Positions 38,116 through 41,552 of a stretch of 64,000 nt of DNA are shown here, one piece after another. Location of the stretch: positions 1 through 64,000 of the forward strand of contig NZ_JAGGKQ010000008.1 of the NCBI RefSeq assembly GCF_017873815.1, in the 5' to 3' direction. Below the pieces are notes generated by a model. It did not search any database. It saw only the letters and a program-made list of their open reading frames with translations, and was not told where the DNA came from. How positions within the stretch are numbered: the stretch's first letter is position 1; every line of letters starts with the position of its first letter. The DNA is from Halorubrum alkaliphilum. Lineage in GTDB: Archaea; Halobacteriota; Halobacteria; Halobacteriales; Haloferacaceae. Made by a program: the position numbers and the translations under genes.

Positions 38116-39337
38116 ATGACAGACATCACGGAGGATTCGTCGGACACCCCGGCGGGTCGAGTTCTTCCAGGGCACGATAGCTTCTAACATCGATATCGGT
38201 CCTGTACGGATCTTCGACACGACGTTACGAGACGGCGAACAGTCACCACGGACATCGTTCAGCTACGACGAGAAACGCCGCATAGCGGCGACGCTGGACG
38301 ACATGAACACCCACGTCATCGAGGCGGGGTTCCCGGTGAACTCCGAGGCGGAGTTCGAGGCCGTGAGCGATATCGCGAGCGCGACGGACACCACCGTCTG
38401 TGGACTGGCCCGCGTCGTCGAGGGCGACATCGACGCTGCCATCGACGCCGGCGTCGAGATGGTCCACGTGTTCGTCTCCACCAGCGACGTCCAACTCGAG
38501 GACTCAATGCACGCCACCCGCGAGGAGGCGAAATCGCGGGCGGTCGACGCCGTCGAGCAGGTGAAAGACGCCGGCGTCGAGTGTATGTTCTCGCCGATGG
38601 ACGCGACGCGGACCGACCCCGACTACCTGATCGACATCGTCGAGGCGGTATCCGACGCGGGCACCGACTGGATCAACATCCCGGACACCTGCGGCGTCGG
38701 GATGCCGACCAGCTTCGGGAAGACGGTGAAGGCGGTCGTCGAGGCGACGGACGCGCGCGTCGACGTCCACACCCACGACGACTTCGGGATGGCCGCGGCG
38801 AACGCGGTCGTCGGCTTCGAGAACGGTGCGGAGCAGGCGCAGGTGTCGGTCAACGGGATCGGCGAGCGCGCCGGCAACGCCGCCTACGAGGAGGTCGTGA
38901 TGGCGGTCGAGTCGGTGTACGGCGTCGACACCGGCATCGATACGACACAGATCACGAAGTTGGCCCGGATCGTCGAGGAGGCCTCGGACATCCCGGTGCC
39001 GGCGAACAAGCCGATCACCGGGCGGAACGCGTTCGCCCACGAGTCGGGCATCCACGCCGCGGGCGTCATCGAGAACGCCGATACGTTCGAACCCGGCGTG
39101 ATGACGCCGGAGATGGTCGGCGCGGAACGCGAGTTCGTGTTGGGTAAACACACGGGCACCCACAGCGTCCGAAAACACCTCGTCGAGGCGGGCTTCGACC
39201 CCACCGAGGGCGAGGTGCGCGAGATCACCAAACGCGTCAAGGAGTACGGCTCCGGTAAGCGGCAGGTGACTGCGGGCGACGTGGAGCGGTTCGCCCGGGA
39301 GGTCGACGTCAACCGCGAGGAGGAGGTCCGTCTCTGA
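38116..39337 (+). CDS. leuA: 2-Isopropylmalate synthase, frameshifted near the N-terminus
   Basis: LeuA/HMGL-like acyltransferase committing 2-oxoisovalerate to leucine. The promoter-proximal ATG (38116) opens a frame that reads 15 codons and then meets TAA at 38185-38187. The body is in the next frame: VEFFQGTIAS (from 38156), FDTTLRDGEQSP (metal and catalytic residues), HTHDDFGMAAANA, NGIGERAGNAAYEE, and the C-terminal regulatory-domain start VLGKHTGTHSV. That frame has no ATG, GTG or TTG before 38303, which would omit the catalytic TTLRDGEQ. One extra G in GCGGGTCGAG (38152-38161) explains it; repaired length is about 406 residues. It could be a sequencing error, a real mutation or programmed frameshifting. 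Confidence 0.85.
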
Positions 39338-39462: not shown

Positions 39463-39468
39463 TTTATA
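39463..39468 (+). promoter_or_regulatory. TATA box of the ilv-leu operon
   Basis: TTTATA lies 26-31 bp before ATG 39494, so transcription should begin at or next to that ATG. No other TATA box is visible up to ilvB at 39705, giving a 5' region of about 210 nt. Confidence 0.6.
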
Positions 39469-39493: not shown

Positions 39494-39568
39494 ATGCGAC
39501 GGAACGCGACGACACGGGCACTCCCCGGCGTAGCCGCGGCCGTCGCGACGATTATTGTAGGGGTATAA
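39494..39568 (+). CDS. Candidate leader peptide of the ilv-leu operon (24 residues)
   Basis: ATG at 39494 begins 24 codons and TAA at 39566-39568 ends them. The peptide starts MRRNATTRALPG and ends in a hydrophobic run rich in Val, Ala and Ile, with the last codons ATT ATT GTA GGG GTA. Placement at the predicted transcription start means a leaderless, efficiently initiated reading frame. The stop codon is in the loop of a hairpin (39557-39576). The resemblance to bacterial ilv and leu attenuator leader peptides is striking; translation and regulatory use are inference. Confidence 0.6.
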   Translation: MRRNATTRALPGVAAAVATIIVGV

Positions 39569-39585
39569 GCCCCTACACTACCCCT
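39557..39585 (+). promoter_or_regulatory. Two mutually exclusive hairpins at the leader-peptide stop (attenuator-like)
   Basis: GTAGGGG (39557-39563) pairs with CCCCTAC (39570-39576) across a 6-nt loop. Alternatively AGGGGTA (39559-39565) pairs with TACCCCT (39579-39585). Both are perfect 7-bp stems sharing the same left arm, which consists of the last Val-Gly-Val codons of the leader peptide. A ribosome stalled on the ATT-ATT-GTA codons would cover that arm. There is no long T run downstream, so a classic intrinsic terminator is not evident. Confidence 0.5.
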
Positions 39586-39704
39586 TCCTCACCGACCCGA
39601 CGTATCGACGAACGCCGACGACCGGGCCCGGAACCGCCCGTCTGTCGGCCGTTCGGATCGAACGACGCTCGTACCCGAGAGACACCAACACACCACACAC
39701 GACG

Positions 39705-41552
39705 ATGAGCGATTCAGCAGCACACCAACGAGATGACGACCCCGAGGAGACGGAGCCGCCGTCAGCGTCCGACGCGGACGGATCGGGGGACGGATCGGAC
39801 CCGACGACTACCGGTACACCGGACGCGGACGGCACAGAGCCGACGGACGGAACGAACGCGACCGGCGCGACATCGGTCGTCTCCGCGCTCGAAGCCGCGG
39901 GCGCGGAGACGGCCTTCGGCGTGCAGGGCGGGGCGATCATGCCTGTCTACGACGCCTTATATAGCTCGTCGATCCGGCACGTGACGATGGCCCACGAGCA
40001 GGGCGCGGCGCACGCCGCCGACGCGTACGGCGTCGTCGCCGGCGAGCCCGGCCTCTGTCTGGCCACGTCCGGTCCCGGCGCGACCAACCTCGTCACCGGT
40101 ATCGCCGACGCCGACATGGACAGCGACTCCATGCTCGCGTTGACCGGGCAGGTCCCGACCGAGTTCGTCGGCAACGACGCCTTCCAGGAGACGGACACGG
40201 TCGGCGTCACTCGGCCGATCACGAAACACAACTACTTCGCGGGTGACGCCGATTCGGTCGGCGACGTTGTCGGGGAGGCGTTCGAGCTGTCGCGAGTCGG
40301 TCGCCCCGGCCCGACGCTCGTCGACCTCCCGAAGGACGTCACACAGGAAGAGACCGACGAAACGCCCGGTCCGGCGGAGGCACCGCCCGGAACCGACCCG
40401 AACCCGGAGGCACGGGCGGACGCGGTGGAGGCGGCCGCGCGGGCGATCGAGCGAGCCGACCGTCCGGTCTGTCTGTTCGGCGGCGGCGTTATCAAGGGCG
40501 AGGCGAGCGACGCCGCGCGCTCGTTCGCACGAACCTACGAGATTCCGGTGACGACGACGATGCCGGGGATCGGCTCGTTCCCCGAGGACGACGACCTGTG
40601 TCTCTCGTGGGCAGGCATGCACGGCACCGGCTACGCCAACATGGCGATCACGCACACCGACTGCCTGATCGCGGTCGGAACCCGGTTCGACGACCGGCTC
40701 ACCGGCGGCATCGACACGTTCGCGCCGGAGGCGGAGGTCGTTCACATCGACATCGACCCCGCCGAGATATCGAAGAACGTTCACGCCGACTATCCGCTGG
40801 TTGGCGACGCGGAGACGGTCCTCGAACAGCTGACGGCCGCGATCCGAACCGTGCCGGACGCCGACGAGTGGCGCGAGCAGTGTCTGGAGTGGCAGGAGAC
40901 GTATCCGATGACGTACGCCACGCCCGACGACGAGCCGCTCAAGCCACAGTTCGTCGTCGAAGCGTTCGACGAGGCAACCGACGACGACACGATCGTGACG
41001 ACGGGGGTCGGCCAACACCAGATGTGGGCCTCACAGTTCTGGACGTACACCGAACCTCGTACGTGGGTCTCCTCACACGGGCTCGGCACGATGGGATACG
41101 GATTGCCCGCCGCGATCGGCGCGCGCGTCGCCGCCGACACCATGGGTGACCCCGACCGCGACGTGATCTGTTTCGACGGCGACGGATCCTTCCTGATGAC
41201 GCTCCAGGAGCTGTCGGTCGCGGTCCGTGAGGACCTCGACATTACCGTCGCGGTTCTCAACAACGAGTATATCGGGATGGTCCGGCAGTGGCAGGACGCC
41301 TTCTACGAGGGGCGCCACATGGCCTCCGAGTACAACTGGATGCCCGAGTTCGACAAGCTCGCCGAGGCGTTCGGCGCGCTCGGGATCCGTGTCGACGGCT
41401 ACGACGAGGTCGCACCCGCGGTCGAGGAGGCGCTCGCGTACGACGGTCCGGCTGTCATCGACTTCCACGTCGACCCAGAGGAGAACGTCCTGCCGATGGT
41501 GCCGAGCGGCGGCGCGAACGGGCAGTTCGCCCTCTCGGAGGATCAGCTATGA
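39705..41552 (+). CDS. ilvB: Acetolactate synthase large subunit
   Basis: A 615-residue thiamine-diphosphate enzyme. After an acidic low-complexity N-terminus (1-48) come the three domains: PYR (VSALEAAGAETAFGVQGGAIMP, catalytic Glu in MAHEQGAAHAADAYG), the FAD-type middle, and PP with GDGSFLMTLQELSVAV and NNEYIGMVRQWQ binding ThDP-Mg. It joins two pyruvates, or pyruvate and 2-oxobutyrate, starting valine and isoleucine synthesis. First gene of the ilvBNC-leuCDB operon, 136 bp after the leader peptide; overlaps ilvN by 4 bases. Confidence 0.96.
   Translation: MSDSAAHQRDDDPEETEPPSASDADGSGDGSDPTTTGTPDADGTEPTDGTNATGATSVVSALEAAGAETAFGVQGGAIMPVYDALYSSSIRHVTMAHEQGAAHAADAYGVVAGEPGLCLATSGPGATNLVTGIADADMDSDSMLALTGQVPTEFVGNDAFQETDTVGVTRPITKHNYFAGDADSVGDVVGEAFELSRVGRPGPTLVDLPKDVTQEETDETPGPAEAPPGTDPNPEARADAVEAAARAIERADRPVCLFGGGVIKGEASDAARSFARTYEIPVTTTMPGIGSFPEDDDLCLSWAGMHGTGYANMAITHTDCLIAVGTRFDDRLTGGIDTFAPEAEVVHIDIDPAEISKNVHADYPLVGDAETVLEQLTAAIRTVPDADEWREQCLEWQETYPMTYATPDDEPLKPQFVVEAFDEATDDDTIVTTGVGQHQMWASQFWTYTEPRTWVSSHGLGTMGYGLPAAIGARVAADTMGDPDRDVICFDGDGSFLMTLQELSVAVREDLDITVAVLNNEYIGMVRQWQDAFYEGRHMASEYNWMPEFDKLAEAFGALGIRVDGYDEVAPAVEEALAYDGPAVIDFHVDPEENVLPMVPSGGANGQFALSEDQL

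Follow-up and report, generated by a model that had tools for sequence, protein, structure and literature searches.

What does the short open reading frame in front of ilvB do in haloarchaea, and does it regulate the genes that follow it? The question arose from a 64,000-nt stretch of Halorubrum alkaliphilum DNA (assembly GCF_017873815.1, contig NZ_JAGGKQ010000008.1, positions 1-64,000, forward strand), hereafter referred to as the window. The window carries the gene order leuA-[leader]-ilvB-ilvN-ilvC-leuC-leuD-leuB, which we confirmed with NCBIfam; ilvB was identified by TIGR00118 (699.9 bits, cut-off 538), and its closest relatives are the ilvB genes of Halorubrum. An earlier note on this DNA had proposed that the sequence before ilvB encodes a leader peptide with Ile/Val control codons, whose translation decides between two mutually exclusive stems. 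We note separately that conserved N-terminal residues of LeuA (VEFFQGTIASN...RIFDTTLRDGEQSP) are encoded at 38165-38302, in frame 5′ of the first ATG at 38303, and that this segment contains no usual start codon, pointing to a start or sequence problem in leuA.

Direct reading of the window bore out the local architecture that had been described: a TATA box 26-31 bp 5′ of a reading frame, exactly 24 codons in that frame with the ending ATT ATT GTA GGG GTA TAA, and an ilvB start 136 nt 3′ of its stop codon, with no further TATA-like site in between upon inspection by eye (Table 1). We refer to this frame as uORF1.

Table 1. Features of the ilvB leader region in the window (positions counted from the first nucleotide of the window).
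Feature	Position	Strand	Remarks
TATA box TTTATA (leader promoter)	39463-39468	+	-31 to -26 from the uORF1 ATG; direct reading
uORF1, predicted leaderless leader peptide MRRNATTRALPGVAAAVATIIVGV	39494-39568	+	24 codons; stop TAA at 39566-39568
Control codons ATT ATT GTA, then GGG, at the end of uORF1	39551-39562	+	GTA and GGG in 79/79 loci
Conserved hairpin UGUAGGGGU-AUAA-GCCCCUACA	39556-39577	+	uORF1 stop codon within the loop; supported by fold, conservation and compensatory change
G-free C/U/A tract 3′ of the hairpin, with T cluster at 39585-39589	39574-39593	+	Candidate pause/termination zone
Second stem AGGGGTA (39559-39565) / TACCCCT (39579-39585)	39559-39585	+	Present in the window; not a conserved part
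Remaining 5′ UTR up to ilvB	39594-39704	+	Holds uORF2 in most relatives; none in the window's clade
ilvB, acetolactate synthase large subunit, first gene of ilvB-ilvN-ilvC-leuC-leuD-leuB (to 46380)	39705-41552	+	

To place uORF1 among its relatives, we fetched 80 ilvB loci from sequenced species, 78 of which reach the leader region and together with the window make up a set of 79 loci. Short ORFs in these loci end in a shared tail that is read in frame, such as MRRHTTAAARASVPGAVAPIIVGV in Halorubrum, MTVRASLSARVRTVDTSALAPIRIVGAS in Natrinema and MTSHDEHAVRATPDAGASDAAVGAIRSLIIVGA in Haloferax, each followed directly by the stop codon. Openness of the frame was set aside as evidence: in this GC-rich DNA an open frame alone carries little information, since 99% of loci also have a second open frame, and the motif itself closes the third. 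The register was assessed by a frame-blind procedure that takes the best TATA-like site 5′ of the motif and then the first ATG 22-40 nt downstream of it. This ATG was in frame with the tail [Ile/Val/Leu]-GTA-GGG-G in 78/78 cases, so that the conserved start codon predicted for other haloarchaea is indeed present. A TATA-like site lies about 30 nt 5′ of an in-frame ATG in 78 of the 79 loci, the exception (L041) having no ATG there. The distances from ATG to tail fall into 16 different lengths, each a multiple of three, with mostly 19-38 codons before the tail. The chance of such a register is about (1/3)^16 if every length class is treated as an independent draw, a figure that shared ancestry weakens; shared ancestry does not explain the register itself, because leaders of unequal length all keep the frame. 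The TATA-to-ATG spacing and the in-frame tail thus define a short ORF at the predicted 5′ end of the transcript.

Conservation of uORF1 is concentrated at its end. No purifying selection on the body of the leader peptide was detected; the absence of an excess of synonymous changes suggests that the peptide itself is apparently not the product under selection, and the body sequence of leader peptides is usually not under selection. Ile, Leu and Val account for 36% of the 8 codons preceding the motif, compared to 20% across the whole body. Within the motif, the Val codon GTA and the Gly codon GGG are each found at all 79 loci. GTA is a rare choice, used for 0.4% of valines by the ilvB genes at these loci, and the tail Ile is encoded by ATT in 52 of 79 loci, compared to 6% in ilvB. 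GTA is fixed even where it is not fully paired: in 55/109 loci, the base that follows CCCC is no pairing partner for its A. Apart from one divergent leader (L115, described below), the residue preceding GTA, where it is not Ile, is Val (L048, L113, L114) or Leu (L117). These patterns seem to reflect one constraint on the tRNA that is read and another on the hairpin described below. The control codons match the products of the operon, an [Ile/Val/Leu]-Val(GTA) tail standing before ilv and leu genes, and the Ile/Val/Leu codons that the earlier note expected to be conserved are so.

Since Ile-Val-Gly-Ala/Val is the sole conserved peptide stretch, we also considered that the tail ...(I/V/L)VG(A/V) stalls within the ribosome with a free amino acid as the trigger, in the manner of TnaC, which responds to tryptophan. 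We regard this kind of nascent-peptide arrest as highly improbable. Arrest leaders conserve residues independently of the codon, whereas here the tail spans 3-4 residues, its Val and Gly codons do not vary even in nucleotide sequence, and the last residues and the length of the peptide vary; the body, as noted, carries no sign of purifying selection. One divergent leader (L115, from genome G010) dispenses with the Gly altogether: it has lost GGG, keeps GTA after Ile-Arg, and ends ...SIRVRAAMAH before the stop. Its hairpin is built from another sequence (GGGCC-GCGAU-GGCCC) and folds no better than shuffles (z -0.73), making this leader a natural variant useful for mechanism tests.

The tail codons overlap a conserved hairpin of the form GGGG(C)...(G)CCCC. 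In the window, the perfect stem 39557-39563/39570-39576 is extended by the pair T39556-A39577 and a T39564·G39569 wobble to a 9-bp hairpin with the loop AUAA. Folded alone, positions 39548-39590 form these 9 bp (39556-39564/39569-39577) at -15.2 kcal/mol, compared to -7.26 ± 2.17 kcal/mol for shuffled sequences (z -3.66). GGGG-CCCC pairing is possible in 79/79 loci, with a spacing of 5 to 9 nt between the arms, and a hairpin of at least 6 bp is present in 81% of the 79 loci, compared to 10% of shuffles. The stop codon of uORF1, whose conservation had likewise been anticipated, lies in the hairpin loop at 103 of 108 loci. The pair adjoining GGGG/CCCC is C-G, U-A (Haladaptatus, Halonotius, L046, L065, L083) or U·G; it is Watson-Crick in 74/78 non-Halorubrum loci, compared to 63.4 expected when the right-hand bases are re-dealt, and none of 20000 permutations reached the observed value, a test that is uncorrected for relatedness.

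The earlier claim of two perfect 7-bp stems is accurate for the window, where both are present. Beyond the window, the first is conserved and varies in a compensatory manner at the pair adjoining GGGG/CCCC; the second has a Watson-Crick run of at least 6 pairs in only 15/79 loci. On this count we reject the second stem as a general antiterminator, and a limited search for other pairing partners gave no conserved competing antiterminator among these loci. We therefore do not accept the proposed two-stem switch. Compared with a terminator/antiterminator pair, a simpler two-state device, in which the ribosome would block a single hairpin, is the better fit.

The same nucleotides could be conserved for a different reason, namely as a regulator site, either an inverted-repeat operator (GTAGGGG/CCCCTAC) or a hairpin bound by a protein, with the ORF being incidental. 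ATYGTAGGGG is almost invariant as a nucleotide sequence, and in Halorubrum the inverted repeat is perfect. A dimeric operator, however, typically has symmetric half-sites at a fixed spacing, whereas here the left arm is invariant, the right arm is invariant only at CCCC, and the spacing between them ranges as given above. The regulator-site explanation also leaves unexplained why the ATG keeps its register with the tail and why Ile is exchanged only for Val or Leu. We consider it very unlikely.

The leader is conserved across the class Halobacteria. The exact core ATYGTAGGGGN2-12CCCC occurs, usually once, in 139/145 haloarchaeal genomes and 55/58 genera; most of the 145 genomes lack the reversed pattern that served as a control. 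Of 30 core matches that we fetched, 29 lie 206-295 nt 5′ of the conserved ilvB domain; the position of the motif is known for these fetched matches, and the count for the other genomes is one of motif presence only. A variant leader precedes ilvB in five of the six genomes that lack the exact core, giving a core or variant leader in 144/145. In the remaining genome (G021, locus L118), no leader was found; its ilvB is 60% identical and seems to lie directly 3′ of the upstream gene. In about 240 genomes from the other classes of the phylum, the pattern occurs near background. With the ATG register, the tail codons and the hairpin all conserved class-wide, the core proposal of the earlier note, a leader peptide with Ile/Val control codons before the ilv-leu operon, is upheld.

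The thirtieth of the fetched matches is a second copy within one genome (L083; G123:C2, ~397923-397943), with its own promoter-like sequence, the leader MRQLDTDSHTAPASGGAVGARLIVGV (uORF ending ...ARLIVGV and a stop) and a hairpin. It precedes a 45-aa ORF (MTENRR...FERGNEGRR) that has no Pfam or NCBIfam match. We also note that a locus labelled Halobellus captivus (L003) has an ilvB 92% identical to that of the window and a leader of Halorubrum type; for the other Halobellus loci the figure is about 80%, and L003 is possibly mislabelled.

The DNA that follows the hairpin is equally distinctive. The first G after the right arm appears at a median distance of 18 nt (108 loci), compared to a median of 0 nt and a 99th percentile of 7 for control CCCC runs in the same DNA. 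Within this tract, T makes up 53-69% at positions +11 to +13 past the hairpin and C makes up 68% at +14 (108 loci). Hairpin-stabilized pauses at a similar distance are known from bacterial his and trp leaders, and the fixed distance from hairpin to T/C cluster (~11-14 nt) would also suit a leader in which the hairpin merely detains the polymerase ~11 nt further on, so that the leader ribosome can catch up and the two stay together, the decision being taken at a later element. We give this pause-only reading very little credence, as no second T cluster was seen before ilvB and the rest of the spacer is T-poor. With mostly 3-4 T per 6 nt, the cluster itself is short, and it lies 11 nt away from the hairpin; both features set it apart from intrinsic terminators in bacteria. 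It does resemble intergenic transcript ends in H. volcanii, which consist of T stretches stopping at C (PMC7237163). In an H. volcanii reporter, an inserted hairpin ended 59% of transcripts (PMC7237163). Archaeal transcription is also terminated by FttA/aCPSF1, a factor analogous to Rho, and the exclusion of this factor by a coupled ribosome is a published hypothesis (PMC11616081).

We propose that the leader probably acts in cis, as a leaderless, ribosome-mediated attenuator that controls the ilvBNC-leuCDB operon in haloarchaea. The promoter-ATG-tail register, the codon choice, the hairpin, the tract, the position before ilvB and the distribution are properties of the DNA itself; from them we infer the transcript start, the stalling, the sign of the effect and a transcriptional output, as follows. 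The mRNA would begin at or next to the uORF1 AUG, and a ribosome would load on its 5′ end as it emerges and trail the RNA polymerase. The last sense codons, AUY or an equivalent followed by the rare GUA, would form or adjoin the left arm of the hairpin, whose loop contains the stop codon. Under a shortage of charged tRNA-Ile or tRNA-Val, the ribosome would wait at AUY/GUA and cover GUAGGGG; with the left arm covered, the hairpin cannot form, and the operon would be transcribed. When the charged tRNAs are plentiful, the ribosome would complete uORF1 and leave, allowing the hairpin to fold. Folding would take place with the polymerase ~11-14 nt beyond, in the G-free U/C tract, and would increase pausing or termination. 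In the simplest reading, the hairpin promotes pausing or termination, so a shortage of Ile- or Val-tRNA would raise expression of the operon.

The main competing explanation places the output at translation: the leader and hairpin would act on translation of ilvB, with the hairpin and the ribosome's position on uORF1 governing whether a second small ORF, coupled to ilvB through AUGA, is accessible or used for reinitiation. This frame, uORF2, lies between the hairpin and ilvB in most relatives (among them L048, L053, L064 and L076) and overlaps the ilvB start as ATGA. Of the 61 loci with at least one ATG between hairpin and ilvB, 60 have as their first ATG the start of a frame that terminates on the ilvB start. 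Ile, Leu and Val codons are almost absent from uORF2 (2.4%, compared to 9% expected from base composition), which could therefore be translated during starvation. We also observed that it often holds a GGAGG-like site. Where uORF2 is present, ilvB is likely translationally coupled to it, and its presence in most genera points to some translational coupling in addition to attenuation. As the sole output, translational control nevertheless appears unlikely to us. The window's clade lacks uORF2, and much of Halorubrum has it only as a remnant of about nine codons, whereas uORF1 and the hairpin are kept in both, and a purely translational mechanism leaves the G-free tract and the T cluster at a fixed distance unexplained.

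Leaders of this kind may not be confined to ilvB. We scanned chosen amino-acid genes in 24 relatives for other leaders and found, in 17/24 haloarchaeal genomes, a TATA-linked small ORF ending in Phe codons before pheS. In the genome from which the window was taken, this leader is MPSEHAAGGITRGTDGDAFGAFFR, ending at the stop codon (L161, G000:C4), and lies ~860-930 nt upstream of the pheS core match (86561-87391); the others are L156-L160, L162, L164-L167, L169, L171-L173, L175 and L176. In several other families the tails are of the ...GFGFFFA type (e.g., ...GFGFFFAA and a stop), and GC-rich inverted repeats follow. E. coli pheM is the Phe-rich leader of pheST and stands before pheS; the haloarchaeal leader is likewise Phe-rich and before pheS, and differs from pheM in gene, in sequence and in its archaeal, TATA-linked start. 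We consider it a candidate pheM-like attenuator. A 26-aa uORF before pheS in H. volcanii appears in a published list (Babski et al. 2016, PMC4983044).

For hisG, trpC, tyrS and ilvD, an equivalent scan gave no consistent leader, which argues that the ilvB and pheS positives are not noise. No leader was found for trpE, which may sit inside its operon, and trpS was covered by only 7 loci; a scan of the upstream flank of leuA gave no consistent second Ile/Leu/Val leader. The pheS leader suggests that the device has been used more than once. Taken together, we lean slightly toward class-wide leaderless ribosome-mediated attenuation in haloarchaea, at ilvB for the branched-chain amino acids and at pheS for Phe, in which the single ilvB hairpin and the G-free tract would stop the polymerase, possibly with aCPSF1/FttA, unless a starved ribosome is there.

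We compared the leader with known systems. A search of Rfam, including riboswitch, T-box and leader families, gave no match at gathering score (best chance match 10.7 bits, cut-off 45), and no Pfam family was found. With the bacterial ilv/leu attenuators (E. coli ilvL, ivbL and leuL; the Corynebacterium ilvBNC leader) it shares a short ORF at the predicted transcript start, control codons for what the operon makes, a hairpin linked to those codons, and the operon itself. It differs from them in being archaeal and leaderless, in having one hairpin with the stop codon in its loop and no conserved antiterminator, and in its G-free tract, where a T cluster lies 11 nt off in place of a U run adjacent to the hairpin. 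We judge that its mode of action is probably that of the leader-peptide attenuators established in bacteria. We do not file it as a classical attenuator, because the competing antiterminator of that class is not conserved and the function is a prediction.

Among other bacterial leaders, tnaC senses free Trp and blocks Rho, and pyrL senses UTP through coupling. The ilvB leader resembles E. coli tnaC and pyrBI in that a ribosome at the leader end would block an element that overlaps it or lies just downstream. It differs in that its codons point to tRNA-Ile/Val and in that the counterpart of Rho would be FttA/aCPSF1 (PMC11616081). For Corynebacterium, a uORF of ilvB (PMC10272879) and a three-hairpin attenuator (PMC11857589) have been described.

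Small ORFs in haloarchaeal leaders are likewise known from the long 5′ UTRs of H. volcanii (Babski et al. 2016, PMC4983044). The table of these ORFs does not include ilvB, and the part of the paper devoted to them gives them as small proteins and proposes no attenuation mechanism. Full-text searches of open papers returned bacterial ilv leaders only and no archaeal one; as subscription papers and preprints were outside their scope, priority is uncertain. According to an archaeal transcriptome paper of 2014, direct experimental evidence for attenuators or riboswitches at work in vivo in Archaea was lacking (PMC4247193).

If our class-wide reading is true, the device would be the first amino-acid attenuator to be established in Archaea and would provide evidence for tight transcription-translation coupling in haloarchaea: a conserved tRNA-sensing leader would mean that archaeal ribosomes trail the polymerase closely enough for control. 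Alternatively, it would mean that ribosomes control the message in another way, from its very 5′ end. The leader is small and open to testing in a group with tractable genetics, and it would account for the way haloarchaea regulate branched-chain amino-acid synthesis.
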